Positions 1 to 10,772 of a DNA stretch of 39,172 bases are shown here, piece after piece. This DNA comes from a bacterium HR15. GTDB lineage: Bacteria; Armatimonadota; Fimbriimonadia; Fimbriimonadales; GBS-DC. Location: the NCBI GenBank assembly GCA_002898555.1, contig BEHR01000031.1, positions 1 to 39,172 of the forward strand. The letters are read 5' to 3'. The notes beneath the pieces are model-generated. The model did not search any database, was not told where the DNA came from, and saw only the letters and a program-made list of their open reading frames with translations. Within the stretch, counting starts at the first letter, position 1. Each line of letters begins with the position of its first letter. A program made the position numbers and the translations under genes.

Positions 1-46
1 CTATCTCTCTGATAGGCGCGAGGTGGAGCAGTAGTTTCGTGCTTCA

Positions 47-82
47 GTGGAGGTGCAGTGGTTGCGAAGGTTGGTTGCGGGC
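47..82 (+). repeat. 36-bp dispersed repeat, copy 1
   Basis: This stretch matches positions 4235-4270 with about three mismatches; the shared core includes GGAGGTGCAGTGGTTGC. Here it lies upstream of the first gene and starts an open frame (GTG at 47) that runs into the Cys-Thr repeat gene but has no other sign of being coding. The second copy forms the 5' end of the large membrane protein gene. Either this is a remnant of a duplicated gene start or a short mobile or regulatory repeat that carries a Shine-Dalgarno-like GGAGGT. Confidence 0.55.
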
Positions 83-132
83 GCTTCGGCGTTTGGCGCG
101 GGCGATTTTGGAAGAATTGGGGTGCGAGTGGT

Positions 133-138
133 TATAAT
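133..138 (+). promoter_or_regulatory. Probable -10 box for the Cys-Thr repeat operon
   Basis: A perfect TATAAT lies about 100 nt upstream of the first gene. A weak TTGGAA sits about 19 nt upstream as a possible -35. No other good promoter is visible before the five overlapping genes that follow, so this may drive the whole unit. Confidence 0.5.
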
Positions 139-235
139 TTTCGCGGCTGGGTGGCATGTTAATATTAGGAGGCGGAAATGGCGGTGGTGCGCTGCCCCGC
201 CTGCCAACAGACCAAAACGATGGAGGAGGATGGTG

Positions 236-1174
236 ATGAGGCGACGACACAGTGGCTGGCTGAATGGACTGGCTGTGATGGCTGGGGCTTTGGCGTGTTG
301 GAGCGTGTGCTGGGCAGAAGCAGACCCGATGGCGCTCTATCGGCACATTGCCACGCTCAGCGCAAACGGAATGAGGGAAGGCATAGTCGATGCAAGCCTG
401 CATACTTTCCGAGAGAGCAAGCCGTGGGTACACCGAGCTATGTTAGAGGAACAAACAATCGCAAATTGTACGGGCTTCATGTGTACTTTGTTTGGTTGCA
501 CAGACGGCGCCGAATGCACCAACTACAAAGAGTGTACCGATGGAAGCTATTGCACCATGGATAACTGCACCCGTTCAGAGTGTACTTATGAGGAGGTTTG
601 CACTTCTGGAGATCAATGTACGGGGAATGGACAACACCACTGTACTGAGGGTAAGTCCTGCACGGGTGGCGGTGTTGATTCTTATTGTACTAAGGGAGCC
701 GATTGTACTGGGGGCAGGTCTTGCACCCATGATAAGGCATGTACCAGCTCGCCTGGCTGCACCGCAGGGCTGCACTGTACCGAGGGACAAAATTGTACCT
801 ACGGGGACGCATGCACCGAATCTGCAGGATGTACAGGTGGGTATGATCCTGGTACTGGGATGGGCTGTACCACAAGTCAACGGTGCACCAACGGGCAGCG
901 ATGTACAGAGGGACACAACTGTACCCTTCAGGCATGCAGTGTACGAGGACAGTGTACGATGGGACCGTCTTGTAGCAAGGGGCACAACTGCACTGTGGCT
1001 GTAAATTGCAGCGCACGCAGTGTGAGCGGATGTAGTGTTGGAAGTGGTTCTGCTAATTGCTGGAAGCCAGTACTGTTGAAAGATGGAGGGGTACAACTTC
1101 TCTCGCTCGCTGCTGTGGGGACTTTGGTCTTGACGATCCTTGCTTCTGGGAGATATGGCGATGCGAATGATTAG
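236..1174 (+). CDS. Secreted Cys-Thr six-residue repeat protein, paralogue 1
   Basis: Unknown function. The ATG at 236 is chosen because GGAGGAGG ends 6 nt before it; the product is 312 residues. It opens with a Sec signal peptide (three Arg, a hydrophobic core, likely cleavage after CWA). A short region shared with the next gene follows (ALYRHIATLSANGMR). About 200 residues then hold 32 cysteines, 31 of them followed by Thr or Ser, mostly exactly six residues apart, as in CTEGQNCTYGDACT. A C-terminal hydrophobic helix suggests membrane or sorting-signal anchoring. In beetle antifreeze proteins (Tenebrio type), Cys pairs six apart form disulfides across each 12-residue beta-solenoid coil and the Thr side chains make a flat face; this spacing is the same. 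The fold is inference. It overlaps the next gene by 14 nt. A better-spaced ATG at 178 reads another frame and was rejected. Confidence 0.85.
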   Translation: MRRRHSGWLNGLAVMAGALACWSVCWAEADPMALYRHIATLSANGMREGIVDASLHTFRESKPWVHRAMLEEQTIANCTGFMCTLFGCTDGAECTNYKECTDGSYCTMDNCTRSECTYEEVCTSGDQCTGNGQHHCTEGKSCTGGGVDSYCTKGADCTGGRSCTHDKACTSSPGCTAGLHCTEGQNCTYGDACTESAGCTGGYDPGTGMGCTTSQRCTNGQRCTEGHNCTLQACSVRGQCTMGPSCSKGHNCTVAVNCSARSVSGCSVGSGSANCWKPVLLKDGGVQLLSLAAVGTLVLTILASGRYGDAND

Positions 1175-2342
1175 TCTGATGATCCTCGTTTCCAGTTGTA
1201 TGGCATCGGCGATCGCTCACGCGCAGGAAGCCAATCCCAATGCGCTCTATCAACATATTGCCAGTTTGAGCGCCAATGGGATGAGAGCAGGTGTTTACGA
1301 GGTCCATGGAGACTCACCTCCCCCTGTTGAGACGCCACTTGCCGAGATGCAAACTTACGCGACGACTCCTTGCAACGATGACACAACGGTGCGCTTTTGC
1401 ACCAGTGCGCGCTCCAGCCGATGCACGAATGTCGACAACTGCACTTCTGACAAAACTTGCACCAGCGGGCGCTGTACCTCCTATGAAATGTGCACCACCA
1501 GTTGGCATGGCCCTTGCACAGGCGTCAAAGGATGCACGATCGGCGTTCAGTGCACTGCAGGGAGCGGATGCACGCTCTCCGACGCATGCACCTCCACCAG
1601 TGGTTGTACTCGAAGCAAAGAGTGTACTCAGGGGACAGGTTGCACTGCCGGTTCCAACTGTACTCGAGGCAAGATATGCACTTCCGCTTCAAGCTGTACC
1701 GACAGCGCTAACTGTACCTCGGCTGTTGGCAAAACGGGATGCACTACAGGCAAGGCATGTACCGCGGGGCAAGGCTGCTCGGGCGGTACAAGGTGCACCT
1801 CCGCTAAGTCCTGCACTGTAGGCGGAGCATGCACTGTAGGAGAATTTTGCACCGCTGCAAAAAACTGTTCGGCAGGAAACCCGTGCACCAATGCGGCTGA
1901 ATGCACAGCAGGTCGCAACTGTTCCGCCATAAACCCTGATTGCACAACAGGCAAATCGTGTAGCACTGGGGAAAATTGCACAAGGGGTACATTATGCAGC
2001 AGTAGCAAGTCTTGTACACAGGTCAATCAGTGTACTGTTCGTGGGGCATGCACCGCAAACAATCTCTGTACCGCAGGCAATTCGTGCACGCAGGAACAGT
2101 ACTGCACGCGCTCAAAAGCCTGCACGACTAAGAACTGTACCATAACACCCATTTGTACCCTGTCAAAGCAGTGTACAACAAAAAATTGCACGAAAAACAA
2201 AGACTGCTCAATACATAAAAACTGTTCTCGGAAAAGGTCGCCTAAAAGCAAAACTGGTTTACCGAATATGACTCTGGAGTTAGCCTTTACGAATCTCCTA
2301 TTCAGCAGTGTCCTTTTGGCGTTGTGGAGGAATAAACAATGA
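1161..2342 (+). CDS. Secreted Cys-Thr six-residue repeat protein, paralogue 2
   Basis: A 393-residue paralogue of the preceding gene, unknown function. ATG codons at 1155, 1161 and 1167 are all possible; 1161 has GGGAG 8 nt upstream. The signal peptide ends near AHAQ. The paralogue-specific stretch ALYQHIASLSANGMR matches its neighbour. Residues from roughly 80 to 350 are an almost unbroken run of 46 Cys-Thr or Cys-Ser pairs at six-residue spacing, about 23 predicted 12-residue coils; spacer residues are small or polar (Ala, Gly, Ser, Lys). The tail has a basic linker, a hydrophobic helix and ends WRNKQ, the layout of a C-terminal sorting or tail-anchor signal. The paralogues differ mainly in repeat number, as expected for solenoids that grow by unequal recombination. 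The stop overlaps the next start (ATGA). Confidence 0.85.
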   Translation: MRMISLMILVSSCMASAIAHAQEANPNALYQHIASLSANGMRAGVYEVHGDSPPPVETPLAEMQTYATTPCNDDTTVRFCTSARSSRCTNVDNCTSDKTCTSGRCTSYEMCTTSWHGPCTGVKGCTIGVQCTAGSGCTLSDACTSTSGCTRSKECTQGTGCTAGSNCTRGKICTSASSCTDSANCTSAVGKTGCTTGKACTAGQGCSGGTRCTSAKSCTVGGACTVGEFCTAAKNCSAGNPCTNAAECTAGRNCSAINPDCTTGKSCSTGENCTRGTLCSSSKSCTQVNQCTVRGACTANNLCTAGNSCTQEQYCTRSKACTTKNCTITPICTLSKQCTTKNCTKNKDCSIHKNCSRKRSPKSKTGLPNMTLELAFTNLLFSSVLLALWRNKQ

Positions 2343-4222
2343 AGCAAGTATTGTGTTTAATATTGATAATAGGATATATAGAAATTGTGTCATCTCAAGA
2401 GATTGCGTTCCCTGCTGGATGGTATACTTACGAGCAGATTGCGCAGCAACTCTCGACCCAGGGGCGTGTTGTGCGCTGTGATCCCGCATTGAAACAAGCG
2501 GTTGTGTTATTAGCTATTAAGCCACGCTCTTGGGAACAGGTATGCTCGCTGCTCGAGCGAAGCCTTGACCTCAAAATCGAACGCGTCAACCCTGATGCCT
2601 CAGAACAGTGGATCCTAAAACTTGATCCCCAAAAAGCACGGCGTGAGAAGGTACTACGCGAGCGTTTTGCCAATATTCTGGCAGGCTCTGGTTGGTCTTC
2701 GGGTCCCGACCTTGCTGCATTACACGCTATTCCTCTGCCCGTTCTCGTTCGAGAGACCCCCCGCCTGACCCAGATGGCTCGTGAGCTCCAACAACAGTTT
2801 AGAACAGCTGCGGGAGATACGGTCCCAAGCGACTCGCAGGGAATCCTAACAACACTTACGGAAACTCTTTCTACCTATTCGATGCCCGATTTTTCACGAG
2901 AGATCGAAGAGGCGGTCGCTTCGCAAATTGATAGTCCAGATGAGGTATTCCGTCATCGCTTTCGCCTCCCCCCTGAGTGGAGTGGTAGCCGAGAGCTAAA
3001 GCGTAAAATAGTGCTGTTGGATTTGGCACTCAAAGTAGATTACTTTAGACACATACTCTTGGCAAGGTACATCGCTCAAGCAAGCGAGCCACAACGCAGA
3101 ATTCACGATGCGGTCATTTCTGGGGAGCATTATTGGATAGTCCCTTTGCAGATATCGACAGATATGATTACATGGTTAGTTGGGAGTAAATACTTTAGCG
3201 AATCACGAAAGACCCTCACTGGCTCTGCGACCTCAAACCCGATTGGTGTCGTGGTTTATTGCTGGGATGGAACACCTGGCTATGTAGGATTCGAAGTGTC
3301 AACAGCCTTAGTTTATGACAACTGGTGGGTTAACCTTGAACATGAGAAGCTGTGGATAAAAACAGCGAATATCGAAGAAATATTTCGTGACATCGATGAA
3401 ACTCTGTATCGGGAATACAGGGAAGCCTCGCAAAAGCAAGACGCCCTGCTTTCAAGCCCAGTTGTGCAACGCTCGGTTGCTACCCGTTTGAGGAGGCAAA
3501 ACCTTTATACATGGCTGTATCAATGGGTGCGTCATTTGGATCAGGAAGTCATTATTCCCCTCTATCCGCATCGTGCGCGTTGTGAGGACGCCCCTAATTT
3601 GCAGAAGCTTCTGGCTTCTCTTCCCGATCGGGGCATATGGCGAGTGGAGCAAATGGAGGGCGTCTGGATCTGGCGCAACTGGCTCGCTTTCCTGGATCGC
3701 GCTCCCGACCTGCCGCTGGCAGCACTCCTGCAACTGGCTCGCTCCCCACGCACCCCCAACGACTGGCGACGGTTCGCACGCCAAGTATCCCCGCGCCAAG
3801 CACGCTGGATGCCCTTGATGCCCAACTTCCCCAACAGTGAGAGCCTGTTCGGGGTTGAAGAACATCTCGGCTCCCTCCCCCTTGTAGCAAAGCAGTGGCT
3901 GCTGTTTCAAGTGTTGGACGCTGTCCCCCAGTGGGAGAGCCGTTTGAAGCGAACAGACACTTTGACGATAGCGTGGCAGGAGCTGGCGCCTGCGAAAAGG
4001 CGGGCGTGGGTGCAGAGGCTGCTTCAGGTGGGGACGGAGGGATTACCGGAAGCGTTGCATCCGTGGGTGTGGCTGGGGCGTGCGGATGTACTGGTGCAAT
4101 CCCTGGAGCAAGCAGGTGTGGTGCGCGTGTCTCGGGTGCGTGGGGGCGTGTCGGTGGTGCTTCAGGTGGGCGAGCAGCAGTGGCTTGGCTGTGTCATCCC
4201 TCTCAAGCTCGGTCAGGATTAG
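2339..4222 (+). CDS. Exported protein of unknown function
   Basis: A 627-residue protein I do not recognise. GGAGG lies 8 nt before the ATG, which overlaps the previous stop in ATGA, so translation is probably coupled. Residues 1-19 form a signal peptide ending near VSSQ. Residues about 25-90 (tyeqiaqqL, then a two-strand pattern, then swEqvcslLersL) resemble the small STN-type domain found at the N termini of secretins and TonB receptors; this is a weak, fold-level impression. The rest is mixed and Trp-rich with no hydrophobic segment, so the protein is likely periplasmic. The 3' third of the gene is GC-richer than its first half. Its place between the repeat proteins and the membrane pair suggests a shared job at the cell envelope. 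Confidence 0.75.
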   Translation: MKQVLCLILIIGYIEIVSSQEIAFPAGWYTYEQIAQQLSTQGRVVRCDPALKQAVVLLAIKPRSWEQVCSLLERSLDLKIERVNPDASEQWILKLDPQKARREKVLRERFANILAGSGWSSGPDLAALHAIPLPVLVRETPRLTQMARELQQQFRTAAGDTVPSDSQGILTTLTETLSTYSMPDFSREIEEAVASQIDSPDEVFRHRFRLPPEWSGSRELKRKIVLLDLALKVDYFRHILLARYIAQASEPQRRIHDAVISGEHYWIVPLQISTDMITWLVGSKYFSESRKTLTGSATSNPIGVVVYCWDGTPGYVGFEVSTALVYDNWWVNLEHEKLWIKTANIEEIFRDIDETLYREYREASQKQDALLSSPVVQRSVATRLRRQNLYTWLYQWVRHLDQEVIIPLYPHRARCEDAPNLQKLLASLPDRGIWRVEQMEGVWIWRNWLAFLDRAPDLPLAALLQLARSPRTPNDWRRFARQVSPRQARWMPLMPNFPNSESLFGVEEHLGSLPLVAKQWLLFQVLDAVPQWESRLKRTDTLTIAWQELAPAKRRAWVQRLLQVGTEGLPEALHPWVWLGRADVLVQSLEQAGVVRVSRVRGGVSVVLQVGEQQWLGCVIPLKLGQD

Positions 4223-4228
4223 CCGTCG

Positions 4229-6547
4229 ATGAAGATGGAGGTGCAGTGGTTGCAAAGGTTGGTTGTGGCCCTGAGCGCGGGGAGCTGGATTGTCTTGGCA
4301 TCAATTGAACACACCGCGATGTACTGGTTGGGCAGTCTGCTTGCCGTGATAGTGATGGGAGTTCACGGCTCCAACCGATCGGCGAAAGCGTTTTTGATCG
4401 CATTATGTGCTTTCGGATGGCTTCTTTTCACACGCACGCAGAGCGGGTTCTTGATGGCTGGTGCGCTCTTGCTCGCCTCTTTCAGTAGCCGTCTTAGCCA
4501 TATCGCGGCTCATGTTGCGCAGACCTTTGCTCTGACAGCGGTCGGAATGCTCCTCTATGAGATAGGGCTCATCAGCCCAGAGGTGAATGCCCTGAGCTGG
4601 AAAGTCACCCACTGGTTGACTCAGATGACTGGAGAACCTGGAGTCTTGGGTGCTGCTCAAAGCCGTCTCTTGCTGGTTTTACCGCCCATCTTATATGGGC
4701 TGATGTATGTCGGATTATTCTCCATCCGCGGCGCGGCGTTGCTTATGCTTCTTATAATCAGTGCCGCCACCGCGCTGCTCACCCAGCTTGGGTTCTGGTA
4801 TGGCTGGATGCTCCTTTTGGCGGTGCTTATGGGGTCGGTTTCGTCACGAAGCTGCTCCCCGTCCAAACTGCGCATTGGTCTTACTTCCGTGATAGTTGCA
4901 GGGGTAGTGGTGGTGAACGGCGTGTGGCTTCGGGGCGCATGGCAACAAGTTTCTCCTATTCGGGTTCGTATCCTGGAAGGAGGCTTGAAGACCTTATCGC
5001 TACCGCCTCCAGAGCCGATTCGTGCCCCCCAAGATGCGCAATTTGGAAATCTGTTGCAGGTGCTACGCCTCTACGGTTTTGAAGTCTACCCCGTAGCGGA
5101 GCCGATGTTAGAACAGGTTCTGCCCCAAACAGAGGTGTTGGTCGTCATCAACCCGACCCATGAGTTGTCTGCCCGTATGCAAAATGCCGTAGAAAGGTGG
5201 GTGCGCTCAGGGGGTGCGCTGCTGGTTCTGGGAGACCATACGGACATAGCGGGGATTATGGCACCCTTGAACCGCCTGATTCACTTTACAGAGATCCGCT
5301 TTCGGTTTGACAGCGCGATCCCCCAAGACCGTTTCTGGCGCTGGAAAAATTGCTTGCGTGGGGAGTGGCATCCGATGTTTTACGGGCGCACAAATGCGGA
5401 CTTCGGGATTAGTGTAGGCGCTTCGCTGGAGATAGGTTGGCGTGCTCAACCGTTAGTGACAGGCGAACACGCTTTTTCCGACTGGGGGCGTGCATGGTAC
5501 GGGCTTTCGCGATTAGGCGATATGACCTACAACGCGGGGCAGGAACGACTGGGGGGACTGGTGCTGGTAGCTGAACAACGCTGTGGGAAAGGAGTCGTGC
5601 AAGTGTGGGGCGATACCTCAGGATTTCAGGACAATAGCCTCACGGCCAATCATCACTATGTGGCGCAATTGGTGGCTACCCTTGCCCAACGACGAACCCC
5701 TACTGAGGCACGACTACTCATAGCCACCGTCACGCTGCTGGCAGCAACAACGATCGTGGTCCTCTTATGGGGGCATCCTTTTACTGGCGTAATTGCATTG
5801 ATGGTTCTCGTCGCCAGTGTTCAAGGTACAGGATGGCTTGTTCAGAGGTTCGCATCTTCGGCGGTAAGGATACAGCAATCGGACTTCGCACTGCTCGATC
5901 AAAGTCACGGGGTACTTTACCCCCAAGAACCCCATGAGAAGGGTTTAAATACCTTCTGTGAGACGGCTCTCCGCGCGGGTATGCCTCTGCTATCCTTCAA
6001 TGACTTCGCGTTTGGAATACAGCTGAAACCGCGCTGGTGGATTATTCACGCACCACTCGTCCCATACACACCCCAGGAAGCTGCTCGTCTGGAACAGTAT
6101 GTGCGTGCCGGAGGCAATTTGATGGTGGTTGCTGGATATCCGCAAGGACAGAACATAAAGCACCTTCTGCAAGCTTTCGGGATGGAGGTTTCGTCGACGC
6201 CCGTGGGTGCAGCACACAACGCACGAATCGGGATTGCTTCCGTGCGTCTTCAAGTGCTCCATAATCACATGGCTGCGGTGTCGGAACAGGAACCGACTAA
6301 AACACCTGCTTATGACGCCGATGTTAGCTTCAAAGAGAGTTACGCCCTGCGAGGCGACCCCCAAACAAAGCCTTTAGTGCGGTGCTGGGGGCATGTGATT
6401 GCCCAGTATAAGCGTTTGGGTGCAGGCATGGTAGTCCTAATTGGGGATAACCGCTTCATCCTGGACGAGAATTTGGGGCAGCGGGAGGAGCGCAATGAAC
6501 CAACCATTCGGCTTCTGCTGGCAATTATGGCGGAACAACTCCCATAG
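4229..6547 (+). CDS. Polytopic membrane protein with paired GDHT-type soluble domains, paralogue A
   Basis: A 772-residue protein of unknown function. The ATG at 4229 lies 6 nt after the previous stop but has no clear ribosome site; a TTG at 4250 sits 7 nt after GGAGGT and could be the true start. About seven hydrophobic segments fill residues 1-240. A soluble domain follows (about 245-490) with a Rossmann-like alternation and VRSGGALLVLGDHTDIAG (Asp 336, His 337). Two more membrane segments (about 490-545) and a second similar domain (VRAGGNLMVVAG) come last. The pattern of a GG-x-L-hydrophobic strand after an amphipathic helix is typical of glutamine-amidotransferase-like or DUF4350-like domains; no nucleophilic Cys is evident. 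The following gene is a paralogue and overlaps it by 53 nt. Confidence 0.75.
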   Translation: MKMEVQWLQRLVVALSAGSWIVLASIEHTAMYWLGSLLAVIVMGVHGSNRSAKAFLIALCAFGWLLFTRTQSGFLMAGALLLASFSSRLSHIAAHVAQTFALTAVGMLLYEIGLISPEVNALSWKVTHWLTQMTGEPGVLGAAQSRLLLVLPPILYGLMYVGLFSIRGAALLMLLIISAATALLTQLGFWYGWMLLLAVLMGSVSSRSCSPSKLRIGLTSVIVAGVVVVNGVWLRGAWQQVSPIRVRILEGGLKTLSLPPPEPIRAPQDAQFGNLLQVLRLYGFEVYPVAEPMLEQVLPQTEVLVVINPTHELSARMQNAVERWVRSGGALLVLGDHTDIAGIMAPLNRLIHFTEIRFRFDSAIPQDRFWRWKNCLRGEWHPMFYGRTNADFGISVGASLEIGWRAQPLVTGEHAFSDWGRAWYGLSRLGDMTYNAGQERLGGLVLVAEQRCGKGVVQVWGDTSGFQDNSLTANHHYVAQLVATLAQRRTPTEARLLIATVTLLAATTIVVLLWGHPFTGVIALMVLVASVQGTGWLVQRFASSAVRIQQSDFALLDQSHGVLYPQEPHEKGLNTFCETALRAGMPLLSFNDFAFGIQLKPRWWIIHAPLVPYTPQEAARLEQYVRAGGNLMVVAGYPQGQNIKHLLQAFGMEVSSTPVGAAHNARIGIASVRLQVLHNHMAAVSEQEPTKTPAYDADVSFKESYALRGDPQTKPLVRCWGHVIAQYKRLGAGMVVLIGDNRFILDENLGQREERNEPTIRLLLAIMAEQLP
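4235..4270 (+). repeat. 36-bp dispersed repeat, copy 2
   Basis: Near-copy of positions 47-82, here forming the first codons (or the ribosome-binding region, if translation starts at the TTG at 4250) of the large membrane protein gene. Similarity stops abruptly after the shared TTGGTTG-GG. Confidence 0.55.
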
Positions 6548-8957
6548 GCTTTACCTTTTCGCTTGTGTTTATGTGGGAGCCCTCTTGACCCTATGGCTCA
6601 CGCCGCGTACGGTTTTAGGCGAGGGCTACCTTCCGCGAGCAGGATGGCAGTGGGTGCTCATGATTTGGCTGCTGCTGCCGCTTTTGGTTATGAACAATCG
6701 TTCGCCCATCCACGCACACGAAACAAAGTGGGCTGTTCTTGCCATAATCGGACTTATTTGGTCACCCACTTTGTCTATAAAAATCGGTTTACTTCTCTTA
6801 ACAGTTGCAGGCGTGCTGGCTTGGTCTTCTTGGCGCGGAGCCCAAGAGCTGGCAATTCGCTATCTTGAAATGGCGGGTCTCTGGATAGGCTTGATGTTCG
6901 GTATAAACATATATAACCATATTGCCGCGCGTCTGGACGGCATACCTTGGATCGGGTATGGCATCGCGCCGCTCCTCACCCTCTTGGGGCTACCGAATTG
7001 GGTGCAGGGCAATCAGGTGTTCGTGCATTATGAAGGCTTTACTTATCCTATGCTGCTCTCTTTAGATAAGTTTGGTGGAGCGTTTCCCTGGTTACTTGGG
7101 ATAGGTATTTTAGTGAGTGGCTACCAGAGGCGAATCCCCGTACCCTTGCTCGTCAGCGCCCTTTTATGGATCGGCTTCACGAGTATCGCCTATGCGCTCT
7201 TTATAACCACAGAATGGGTAGTTCAAGGGAACCAGTTACTCTGGTGGGACGAAACTTTGCTGGGTGGATTTTACGGTCTGGCAACAATCCCCGTCGCGTG
7301 GCTATTGCCAGCATCCCCCGTACCCAATCCGTCCACTCTGAAGTTGACCTCTCGGCAGTCACACGCTTGCACAGTCGCCTTGATCTTGGCAATATTTCTG
7401 ATAGTCACAGGTTGGCTCTGGGTGGATCCGGGTGTCCGCAAAGCAGGTACCATCCTCATAGATGAGTACTATAGTGATTGGGAATGGAGCGATGTGACTT
7501 TGAATACGCAAAGGTACGGAGTTCAAACAGTTTATAATTACTATTGTATGGTGGAGTTTTTCAAGCATTACTTCGCCCAAGTGGAACGCAACAACGAGCC
7601 GTTGAGTTATGAGAGACTGCGCTCCTATTCCGTGGTGATTCTCAAGACACCTACCCAGCCCTACCCCCCATCCGTGCGTGAAGCGTTACGGCGATATGTG
7701 GAAGAAGGGGGAAGCCTGTGGCTCATCGGAGACCATACCAATATCTTCGGAATGAATAATTATCTCAACACTGTGTTAGCACCGTGGAAGCTACGCTTAG
7801 AAGCGGACGCGGTGATTGACCCCGAGACGAATCGGCAACTCTATGCCCCCACCGCCATTGCTCATCCTGTGGTTCGCTCACTCCCCGTTTTTCTGTTTTA
7901 TACAGGGTGCTCGGTTCAAGCGCCCCTCGATTGGGGTACTTACGAGGTGATCTTATCTCCCCGCATGCTTCGCGATAAGCCTGACCTTGCCCAGAATACC
8001 TTCTTTGGCGATTTTGCACCCAGCCTTGCCGAGAGTGTTTGCCCGACAATCCAAGCGGTTGTGAAATACGCTGGCAAAGGGCGTGTGGGTATATGGTCGG
8101 ACAGCACATTGTTTTCGAATTTTGCGATTACTCTACCTGGCAAAATGGAGTTAGCCGTTGGCTTCCTGGACTTTCTGAATCGTCAAAATAGGTTTCCCCA
8201 GCTGCGCCTTATGTCTGTCGGCGCAGGCTGTTTACTTGCTCTCATTGGTTTTAGGGGGTTACGAACAGCCCATCACCTGGCCATTGTTGCTGTGTGGAGT
8301 GGCATTTTGGCAGGGACTGTATTCACTACATTTTGTTATTCCCAATTCTATCCTGCGCTTCAGCTGCATACACCCTTTGAAAAGATAGGCTTTCTTGAAG
8401 CGGAACCCACAGACCACCTACCCATCTTGAGACCCATCGATGACCCCTATCCCAACAGTTATCTTACCGCCTTCGTGGCGGCTTTGCGAGCAGGTAAATA
8501 TGCCGAGACCTGCTTCAAGATGTCCCAGGTCATGTCTTATCCCAGAGTGGTTGTCATACACGGACATCAAGTCATTGACTGGAAAACATTATCCGATTTC
8601 GTCCATGCAGGCAGGAAGCTCATTTTACTGGATGGTGGGGCGACGCCTGAAGCACTCGTGCAGGCAAGCCAGGTGTTCGGAATTCGCTATGTGCCGATGC
8701 CAGGTAAGACAGTTTTGAATTTGCAGGATGCCTCGATCCCGGTCGAGATAGCTGGCTATTTTCAATCAGGCATCCCCCTTTTGGTTGATTCCGAAAGACG
8801 CGCGCTTTTGATTGCCCACCAATTCGGACAGGGTAAAGTCTATCTAAGTACCACAGAAGCGCTTTTTTCGGACATGAGTTTAGGTGAGCCTTCTGATATC
8901 CCAAATGCAGCACAGTTTGCACTGCTAACGATATTATTTCAACTCTACGGGGATTGA
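6495..8957 (+). CDS. Polytopic membrane protein with paired GDHT-type soluble domains, paralogue B
   Basis: An 820-residue protein of unknown function, paralogous in layout to the preceding gene. The ATG at 6495 follows GGGAGGAG by a few bases and lies inside the previous gene (53-nt overlap), so translation is probably coupled. About nine hydrophobic segments occupy residues 1-320. A soluble domain contains VEEGGSLWLIGDHTNIFG (Asp 413, His 414), the motif shared with paralogue A, followed by an HPV segment and AGKGRVGIWSDSTLF. Two membrane helices and a second domain (IDWKTLSDFVHAGRKLILLDGG) close the protein. The shared invariant Asp-His-Thr in both paralogues hints at a functional site. 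It is the last gene of the unit; no strong terminator follows. Confidence 0.75.
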   Translation: MNQPFGFCWQLWRNNSHRLYLFACVYVGALLTLWLTPRTVLGEGYLPRAGWQWVLMIWLLLPLLVMNNRSPIHAHETKWAVLAIIGLIWSPTLSIKIGLLLLTVAGVLAWSSWRGAQELAIRYLEMAGLWIGLMFGINIYNHIAARLDGIPWIGYGIAPLLTLLGLPNWVQGNQVFVHYEGFTYPMLLSLDKFGGAFPWLLGIGILVSGYQRRIPVPLLVSALLWIGFTSIAYALFITTEWVVQGNQLLWWDETLLGGFYGLATIPVAWLLPASPVPNPSTLKLTSRQSHACTVALILAIFLIVTGWLWVDPGVRKAGTILIDEYYSDWEWSDVTLNTQRYGVQTVYNYYCMVEFFKHYFAQVERNNEPLSYERLRSYSVVILKTPTQPYPPSVREALRRYVEEGGSLWLIGDHTNIFGMNNYLNTVLAPWKLRLEADAVIDPETNRQLYAPTAIAHPVVRSLPVFLFYTGCSVQAPLDWGTYEVILSPRMLRDKPDLAQNTFFGDFAPSLAESVCPTIQAVVKYAGKGRVGIWSDSTLFSNFAITLPGKMELAVGFLDFLNRQNRFPQLRLMSVGAGCLLALIGFRGLRTAHHLAIVAVWSGILAGTVFTTFCYSQFYPALQLHTPFEKIGFLEAEPTDHLPILRPIDDPYPNSYLTAFVAALRAGKYAETCFKMSQVMSYPRVVVIHGHQVIDWKTLSDFVHAGRKLILLDGGATPEALVQASQVFGIRYVPMPGKTVLNLQDASIPVEIAGYFQSGIPLLVDSERRALLIAHQFGQGKVYLSTTEALFSDMSLGEPSDIPNAAQFALLTILFQLYGD

Positions 8958-9008
8958 TAAGGATATCAATGATTTCCCCTATCGAGGAGCTTGAAGCATC
9001 GCCTGCGC

Positions 9009-9051
9009 GGACACCCATGTCTGTCCCTACACGCCGGGCGGCTCACCCGCC
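9009..9051. repeat. REP-like palindromes in the intergenic gap
   Basis: Two small inverted repeats lie in the 160-nt gap: GGACA/TGTCC (9009-9026) and GGCGG/CCGCC around CTCAC (9037-9051). They resemble degenerate forms of the palindromic elements near 38781-38850 and could act as a weak terminator for the upstream operon. Only the base pairing is seen. Confidence 0.35.
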
Positions 9052-9084
9052 AATTGCTTGGACGATTTTCAAATAGCGGAGCGG

Positions 9085-9114
9085 TTGCATTGGTTGGCGA
9101 AGGCATGCCATAAT
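9085..9114 (+). promoter_or_regulatory. Promoter of the metal-transport genes
   Basis: TTGCAT (9085-9090) and CATAAT (9109-9114) are separated by 18 nt. The expected transcription start falls at or within a base or two of the ATG at 9121, so the message is probably leaderless. Confidence 0.55.
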
Positions 9115-9126
9115 TTAAGCATGCCT
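9101..9126. promoter_or_regulatory. Candidate operator palindrome over the -10 box and start codon
   Basis: AGGCATGC (9101-9108) and GCATGCCT (9119-9126) form a perfect 8-bp inverted repeat around CATAATTTAA. It covers the -10 box and the ATG, where a repressor would block transcription. Since the genes are for metal uptake, a metal-responsive repressor (DtxR/MntR or Fur/Zur class) is a reasonable guess, but the sequence is not one of the consensus sites I know. Confidence 0.5.
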
Positions 9127-10038
9127 AAATTTCGAGGGGAGCAGGCGGGGTTAACCGTTGCGCTGATGACCCTGGTGGGCTGCACGGCAAGACAGTTATC
9201 CGGCAAGCCCTTGGTGGTTTGCACCACGGGCATGGTGGCCGATTTGGCAAAGCGCGTGGGCGAGCCAGAGATTGCTGTCTATGCGTTGATGGGACCCGGC
9301 ACCGATCCCCACCTCTACAAGCCGACCGAAGGCGACCTACAACACTTGGCGAAGGCGAGGTTGGTGCTGTATAACGGGCTTCACCTGGAAGGCAAGATGA
9401 GCCTGATTCTGGAGCGGCTCGCGCGTGTGCGCCCCACGATCGCCGTCACCCAGGCTATTCCCGCCGAATTGCTGCGCTACCCTCCTGAAGCCGAAGGCAA
9501 ACCCGATCCGCATGTGTGGCACGATGTTTCCCTCTGGGTATATGCATTGCAGGGTGTGACCGATGCCCTTTGCGAACAGTTCCCACAGCATGAATCGCGT
9601 TTCCGCGCTCGCAGCACGGCCTATCGGGAGGAGCTCACGACGCTCCACGAATGGTGCAAAGCACAAATTGCTCAGATACCACCCCTACAGCGTGTGTTGA
9701 TTACCTCTCACGACGCTTTCAGCTATTTTGGACGCGCTTATGGATTAGAAGTGCGCAGCCTACAAGGCATCAGCACCCTCTCGGAATATGGGTTGCGCGA
9801 CCTGCAGGCATTAGCGGAGTTTATTGTGCAGCGGCATATTAAAGCGATTTTTGCGGAGACGAGTATTTCGCCCCGTGCGCTACAGGCAGTGATGATGAGC
9901 TGCCGACAGCGCGGGCACATCGTGAGGCTGGGCGGCACGCTCTACTCGGATGCACTCGGGCCGCCCGACAGCGATGCCGCCACCTATGTCGGCATGATTC
10001 GGCACAATGTGCGCACCATCGTGAAGGCCCTGAGGTGA
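9121..10038 (+). CDS. Zinc/manganese ABC transporter substrate-binding lipoprotein
   Basis: A cluster A-I (TroA/ZnuA/MntC) binding protein of 305 residues that delivers Zn2+ or Mn2+ to an ABC importer. The ATG at 9121 is preferred because the segment from MPKF through LVGC is a lipoprotein signal (lipobox LVGC), whereas the longer frame from 9058 puts a hydrophilic extension before it. The family's metal ligand motifs are visible: GTDPHLYKPTEGD (His 1), PDPHVWHD (His 2), SHDAFSYFGRAYGL, FAETSISPR (Glu) and LYSDALGP (Asp). The charged His-rich loop of many ZnuA proteins is missing, so zinc and manganese cannot be told apart. No ribosome site is visible. The ATPase gene follows 5 nt later; no permease gene is adjacent. 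Confidence 0.9.
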   Translation: MPKFRGEQAGLTVALMTLVGCTARQLSGKPLVVCTTGMVADLAKRVGEPEIAVYALMGPGTDPHLYKPTEGDLQHLAKARLVLYNGLHLEGKMSLILERLARVRPTIAVTQAIPAELLRYPPEAEGKPDPHVWHDVSLWVYALQGVTDALCEQFPQHESRFRARSTAYREELTTLHEWCKAQIAQIPPLQRVLITSHDAFSYFGRAYGLEVRSLQGISTLSEYGLRDLQALAEFIVQRHIKAIFAETSISPRALQAVMMSCRQRGHIVRLGGTLYSDALGPPDSDAATYVGMIRHNVRTIVKALR

Positions 10039-10043
10039 GAACG

Positions 10044-10772
10044 ATGCCCTTAGAGATACGCAACCTAACGGTGGTTTACAACGGCAAGCCGGCAATCCAC
10101 AACATCACCCTTACGGTGCGGGAGGGTGTGCTTACTGGGATGGTCGGACCGAATGGTGCGGGCAAAAGCACCTTGCTGAAAGCGATTTTGGGGCTGGTTC
10201 CCAGGGCAACAGGCGAAGTGTGGCTCAATGGACGCCCCATGGACAAGCCGCGTGGCGAAATTGCCTATGTGCCGCAGCGGGGGAGCGTCGAGTGGGACTT
10301 CCCCGTGAATGTGCTGGATGTGGTGCTGATGGGCACTTACGCGCGTCTGCCTATCGGGCGGCGCCCCGGCAGAGCAGAGCGTGAGTGGGCGATGGAGTGC
10401 TTGCGACAGGTTGAGCTGGAGGAGTTATGGCGACGGCAAATCGGGGAGCTGTCGGGCGGTCAACAGCAGCGGGTCTTTCTGGCGCGCGCACTGGCACAGG
10501 ATGCACCCGTCTACCTGCTGGATGAGCCGCTTGCAGGCGTGGATGCTGCCACGGAAGGGGTGATTATGGAGCAGCTGCACCGCTTGCGCGATCGGGGACG
10601 AATCGTGTTGATGGTGCATCATGACCTGCAAACTGTGCGCGATTGCTTCGACGAGGTCGCGCTGTTGAACGAGCATCTCATCGCGGTGGGCAGGGTAGAT
10701 GCCGTGATGACCCCTGAAAACTTACAACGCACTTACGGGGGCAAACTGGTCTTTCTGCAGGATATGGATTAG
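10044..10772 (+). CDS. ABC transporter ATP-binding protein, metal type
   Basis: A 242-residue ATPase of the ZnuC/MntB class that would energise metal import with the preceding binding protein. The ATG at 10044 follows a GGTGAG ribosome site that overlaps the upstream stop. Walker A is GPNGAGKST (about residues 35-43), the Q-loop is in AYVPQRGSVEWDFPV, the signature is LSGGQQQR, Walker B is VYLLDEPLAGVD and the switch His is in MVHHDL. QRGSVEWDFPV is characteristic of manganese/zinc transporter ATPases. The permease expected in the operon is absent; the next gene is convergent Hsp20. Confidence 0.9.
   Translation: MPLEIRNLTVVYNGKPAIHNITLTVREGVLTGMVGPNGAGKSTLLKAILGLVPRATGEVWLNGRPMDKPRGEIAYVPQRGSVEWDFPVNVLDVVLMGTYARLPIGRRPGRAEREWAMECLRQVELEELWRRQIGELSGGQQQRVFLARALAQDAPVYLLDEPLAGVDAATEGVIMEQLHRLRDRGRIVLMVHHDLQTVRDCFDEVALLNEHLIAVGRVDAVMTPENLQRTYGGKLVFLQDMD

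Follow-up and report, generated by a model that had tools for sequence, protein, structure and literature searches.

The window, the whole stretch of 39,172 nucleotides that was analysed, contains near its start the genes of two Cys-Thr hexapeptide proteins (proteins 1 and 2) and the following features:

3..137, forward strand, C-terminal end (...LRRLARAILEELGCEWL*) of a sigma-70 region-4-like gene, truncated by the contig start, with its frame read
165..231, forward strand, repeated 5' leader with a possible hairpin (GGAGGCGG...CCGCCTGCC) and AACAGACCAAAACGATGGAGGAGG, ending in the ribosome-binding region of the protein 1 gene
236..1174, forward strand, protein 1, 312 aa, with signal sequence, conserved ALYRHIATLSANGMREG motif, 31 C[TS] units and C-terminal hydrophobic segment
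1155..2342, forward strand, protein 2, 395 aa from ATG 1155, with signal sequence, ALYQHIASLSANGMRAG motif, 46 C[TS] units and C-terminal hydrophobic segment
2339..4222, forward strand, secreted partner, 627 aa, in ATGA overlap with the protein 2 stop, with homologues in the same place in genomes G039, G094 and G074
4229..6547, forward strand, multi-pass membrane protein, 772 aa, with DUF4350/ABC_transp_aux (GIFT-type) domains, a conserved operon gene
6495..8957, forward strand, second multi-pass membrane protein (6441-type), 820 aa from ATG 6495, with GIFT/DUF4350 domains

The open reading frame of protein 2 (1140-2342) would encode 400 aa, with ATG 1155, inside the protein 1 gene, as the probable start. 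The 31 and 46 Cys-Thr/Ser pairs counted in the two paralogues by the earlier note were reproduced exactly from the open reading frames, and most pairs are indeed six residues apart, with spacings of 21x6, 5x5, 2x8, 9 and 12 in protein 1, and 38x6, 3x5, 2x8, 9 and 7 in protein 2. Over 2000 composition-preserving shuffles, six-apart pairs averaged 0.13 (protein 1) and 0.40 (protein 2), with maxima of 3 and 4; the hexad repeat of both proteins is far beyond chance. TRF detected no tandem array in the DNA that encodes the repeats, and codons are mixed, with the two for Cys and the four for Thr all in use, so that the repeat is maintained in the protein and does not stem from a recent expansion of the DNA; the sharing of Cys and Thr codons between adjacent units is close to the codon-frequency prediction.

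No Pfam, NCBIfam or PADLOC model matched proteins 1 and 2, the PADLOC result covering defence systems. Whole-genome searches with a four-sequence profile placed relatives in only 3 of the 291 genomes of the phylum: two proteins in this genome (G000), one in G004 of the same family, and one intact protein with fragments of a second in G039, of the same order and another family. In all relatives the signal sequence is followed by a short common motif (LYRHIAxLSANGMxxG / VQRHIAHLSSAGMAEG). The two proteins are real and undescribed in the libraries searched, and a distribution beyond the phylum is possible. When a five-CT-unit DNA pattern was run against 84,980 species, the matches listed looked like low-complexity DNA repeats, not coding relatives. 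Several further candidates were rejected: a match in G002 (29% identity) had no Cys-Thr protein at that place, those in G260 came from an 18-bp DNA repeat inside an open reading frame, read in another frame, and the best plasmid match (Rhodococcus) was a perfect repeat at the DNA level where nothing is annotated. Viral contigs yielded no relatives. The first Cys-Thr copy of G039 (L142, about 8624-9139) is a broken tandem copy, with its repeat spread across two frames and lacking a start.

Across the 93 six-residue units of the four proteins, the consensus runs C (93/93), T (85), S/A (34), G (50), K/D (32), N/A (31). The position with the strongest small-residue preference, above every other in the unit, is Cys+3, where G, A or S stands in 68-81% of the six-residue units of all four bacterial proteins and in 100% of those of the Tenebrio protein (1EZG). 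Hydrophobic content is very low (8-13%), and no CxxC pair occurs within the repeat. The mature chains contain 32, 47 (protein 2), 23 (G004) and 28 Cys; as two of these totals are odd, at least one Cys in protein 2 and in the G004 protein lacks an intrachain partner.

Both paralogues start with a hydrophobic segment, a predicted signal sequence, and end in another, the tail, whose Kyte-Doolittle maxima over 19 residues are 2.04 (protein 1) and 1.68 (protein 2), in agreement with their earlier description as exported and tail-anchored. The tail is not kept among the relatives: the G004 protein has no C-terminal hydrophobic segment, and that of the G039 protein is weak. The suggestion of a thermophilic host was likewise upheld by a predicted (IVYWREL-based) growth temperature of about 59 °C, and amino-acid composition makes a moderate thermophile probable. 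This genome and G004 both encode VKOR, as do 24 of the 25 genomes searched, so that disulfide formation outside the cytoplasm is available.

The genes for proteins 1 and 2 head a conserved operon, a context absent from the earlier note. Protein 1 and protein 2 overlap, as do protein 2 and the 2339 gene, and the 4229-6547 and 6495-8957 genes; the step from 4222 to 4229 is 7 bases. This genome shares the gene order Cys-rich protein(s), 2339-type, 4229-type, 6441-type with G039, G094 and G074, which represent three genera of another family. Within the order, the 6441-type gene occurs in 5 of 113 genomes, one of these being a marginal, domain-only match, and in all four full-length cases a Cys-rich exported protein lies upstream. 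In G039 a Cys-Thr pair precedes the same three genes. The slot is filled in G094 (L183, 8985-9941) by a 318-aa exported protein with 26 Cys at an irregular spacing of 6-10 residues and a PEP-CTERM-like tail, and in G074 (L184, 5585-6979) by a 464-aa Cys-rich exported protein with a hydrophobic tail; these two look unrelated and lack the regular CTxG unit. The Cys-rich protein is the most variable part of the operon; the module of the other three genes is thus stable while its client varies. It is not obligatory, as G004 has a Cys-Thr protein with neither the 6441-type gene nor a hydrophobic tail. The membrane pair also turned up in other orders in a phylum-wide search, as distant copies on short contigs (G259, G175, G247).

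About 100 bp past the operon, at 9058-10772, lie genes for a ZnuA-type metal-binding protein (PF01297, E=5.7e-75) and an ABC ATPase, which resemble NCBIfam 'anchored repeat' ABC transporter families at sub-threshold scores.

The 2339-4222 protein matched nothing in Pfam, NCBIfam or the PDB; its N-terminal ~80 residues are conserved among the operon relatives and, judged by eye only, look like a secretin/TonB STN-type domain. Both membrane proteins score above the curated cut-off for PF14258 (30.4 bits), with 50.7 bits for the 4229-6547 protein (E=3.3e-13) and 38.8 bits for the 6495-8957 protein (E=1.5e-9). The former also matches PF09822 (E=1.2e-11) and has IFT52 as its top, weak PDB match (E=0.007); the latter matches IFT52_GIFT (6.2e-5) and IFT52 structures (E=3.4e-4), is 31-34% identical to its operon relatives, and has an invariant SxDKxGG motif in its membrane part. 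The pair has GIFT/DUF4350 domains in common with GldG, archaeal arCOG01314, IFT52 and Wbp1/OST48, and differs from them in that the domains are fused to multi-pass regions, stand in tandem, and are tied to Cys-rich exported proteins. GIFT domains, for which sugar binding has been proposed, are found in gliding, ciliary transport and oligosaccharyltransferase systems (PMC7226087), and DUF4350 proteins are predicted to be part of a secretion or membrane-remodelling complex (PMC5898192).

To the eye, the membrane proteins of the operon had looked exosortase-like, but such a homology was rejected (profile-profile (HH) probability below 1%, no PF09721 match); a separate true exosortase (PF09721) is encoded elsewhere in this genome. 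The likeness to exosortase/PEP-CTERM systems is confined to the tail of the G094 Cys-rich protein, whereas proteins 1 and 2 have no PEP motif before the C-terminal hydrophobic segment.

We favour, at a probability of about 0.5, the reading that proteins 1 and 2 are exported, disulfide-rich surface proteins forming a rod, coat or fibre, with a display, assembly or modification module of their own. They would leave the cell by the Sec pathway via their N-terminal signal sequences, be oxidized outside the cytoplasm with VKOR as the putative disulfide source, and be retained by the C-terminal hydrophobic segment. The other three operon genes, for the secreted partner and the two GIFT/DUF4350 membrane proteins, would constitute the dedicated module, in which the membrane pair would handle the protein and the GIFT domains may bind sugars. 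The C-T-x-G-x-x units probably fold as a narrow repeat structure with disulfides between Cys six apart, on the model of the beetle antifreeze protein but with no ice-binding face.

To our knowledge, a Cys-Thr pair about every six residues is otherwise known only from beetle antifreeze proteins. In PDB searches (phmmer, hmmsearch), 1EZG was the top match for protein 2 and for the family profile, in line with the beetle-like Cys spacing proposed earlier, with an E-value of 0.04 and a composition bias score greater than the match score; for protein 1 it ranked second (E=0.31). As an E-value of 0.04 is not significant, the preference of the earlier note for convergence over homology holds, and the likeness, as judged from the sequences, is one of design and not of detectable descent. 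Common to the beetle proteins (TmAFP, DAFP, DhbAFP, 1EZG) and the bacterial ones are the six-residue Cys step, the Thr after Cys, the small residue at Cys+3, secretion (predicted for the latter) and the dominance of the repeat. The beetle unit has 12 residues, TCTxSxNCxxAx, in two unlike halves with a TCT ice face (PMC8038014), whereas the unit found here, in a bacterium, has six, all units are equivalent, the TCT face is missing, and the much longer chains carry, in addition, a motif at the N-terminal end and a hydrophobic tail at the C-terminal one. The TCT tripeptide occurs 0 times in protein 1 and once in protein 2. Odd/even half-coil alternation, i.e. a two-unit period, is absent from the four bacterial proteins (p 0.14-0.74), with 1EZG as positive control at z=4.7, and none of the four has a three-unit period. 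Single-lag similarity was raised at lags 4 and 6, which the pooled period test did not confirm. AF2 predictions for the Cys-Thr proteins, made from alignments of one or two sequences, reached a pLDDT of 34-38, with moderate confidence confined to the C-terminal helix of protein 2.

The competing accounts of the fold, a regular β-helix and an irregular chain, are sub-cases of the favoured reading, and their probabilities do not add to its own. According to the first, the chain is a right-handed β-helix of 12-residue coils exactly as in the Tenebrio antifreeze protein: all Cys would be bonded i/i+6, and the resulting rigid rod would bear a Thr ladder on each of its two faces. The Cys spacing, the small Cys+3, the top PDB rank of 1EZG and the irregular 5-residue units towards the N terminus, which 1EZG has too, argue for such a helix, while the odd/even asymmetry that is strong in 1EZG is missing, insertions fall equally in either half, Cys totals are odd, and the AF2 runs gave no model; a symmetric two-face version would, however, evade the parity test. 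We consider this exact form a serious contender that falls somewhat short of an even chance, and would say the same of a beetle-like solenoid in general, which is plausible. Of the disulfide-laddered solenoid proposed in the earlier note, the spacing stood, and the fold itself, with all Cys paired i/i+6, is plausible at most, the AF2 models being uninformative, the half-coil signal missing and the counts of 47 and 23 odd, so that pairing within the chain must leave out some Cys there.

The second account, of a flexible or irregular Cys-rich chain whose molecules cross-link to one another to make up a coat or matrix, with no regular solenoid, is credible, if rather on the doubtful side. It would accommodate the odd Cys totals, the varying unit lengths and the low hydrophobic content, as well as the slot proteins of G094 and G074, whose irregular build implies that richness in Cys matters more in this slot than an exact hexad does; the strict six-residue spacing and the small Cys+3 argue against it, for a fixed local geometry.

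That the proteins bind metal or act in redox chemistry, with reduced Cys holding a metal in connection with the downstream Zn/Mn-type ABC transporter genes, is improbable. The ZnuA-type protein and the ABC ATPase would suit such a role, but the repeat has no CxxC, the proteins carry export signals and the genome encodes VKOR, and the transporter genes, here separated by the gap of about 100 bp, are absent beside the operon in G039, G094 and G074. Still less probable is a left-handed parallel β-helix of the LpxD/hexapeptide-transferase type with three hexads per coil, to which the six-residue unit and a weak LpxD match (E=0.07) might point, since position i is Cys where an aliphatic inner residue would be needed, no three-unit period or Pfam hexapeptide match was found, and transferase features are lacking. 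Ice binding, already judged improbable in the earlier note, has next to nothing in its favour beyond the beetle-like Cys-Thr spacing, given the near absence of TCT, the lack of a one-sided Thr face and the moderate-thermophile composition.

The reading of proteins 1 and 2 as exported surface proteins with their own module can be carried further, to the first bacterial disulfide-laddered β-helix rods of 12-residue coils with equivalent Thr half-coils, perhaps Thr-glycosylated, and built by a GIFT-domain membrane machine whose client is exchanged between species; this fuller picture is speculative and, taken as a whole, rather unlikely. How little sequence suffices for a disulfide-stapled repeat fold would be tested naturally by such a long, probably heat-stable chain of Cys-Thr hexads, which might also serve as a stable nanofibre scaffold. 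As the beetle 12-residue sequence is stated to be absent from bacterial antifreeze proteins (PMC8038014), a bacterial protein akin to it in design but not by descent would be a clear case of convergence. The operon, in turn, supplies a testable client for orphan GIFT/DUF4350 membrane proteins, and it is new beyond the earlier note, together with the alternative Cys-rich proteins in its slot and the leader cassette.

Allowing up to 3 mismatches, this genome has the leader upstream of protein 1 (~67 bases) 8 times (165..231 of the window and loci L219, L221-L226); G004 has it 3 times, plus a diverged copy in L141 at ~6684 (loci L228, L230, and L141 ~6631-6730 and ~8569-8665). The 16 other genomes of the family have none, so that the two of 18 with the leader are the same two that have Cys-Thr proteins. 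It also precedes about ten other genes, mostly for secreted proteins, which often contain Cys and in several cases are rich in it, and where the sequence upstream of it is readable, a sigma-region-4-like gene or its tail usually stands there. The tail seen at 3..137 also ends a complete gene upstream of the leader in G004 (L228, L230), and another G004 gene in that position matches Sigma70_r4_2 (E=7.5e-13). These occurrences suggest either a regulon common to the genes concerned or an expression cassette that has been copied. The leader loci follow the pattern GGAGGCGG...CCGCCTGCCAACAGACCAAAACGATGGAGGAGG. No Rfam family matched the leader; the GGAGGCGG/CCGCCTGCC stem is mostly invariant, with one compensatory pair in the inner helix, and an RNA structure is possible on this pattern.

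Near the end of contig C40 of this genome (L225), the leader is followed by the first ~25 codons of protein 1, after which the contig breaks off, a hint that the assembly lacks a third Cys-Thr gene or a signal-sequence cassette in shared use. A 33-base stretch is 94% identical between positions 48-80 and 4236-4268 of the window, in the different contexts of the sigma-like tail and the start of the 4229 gene.
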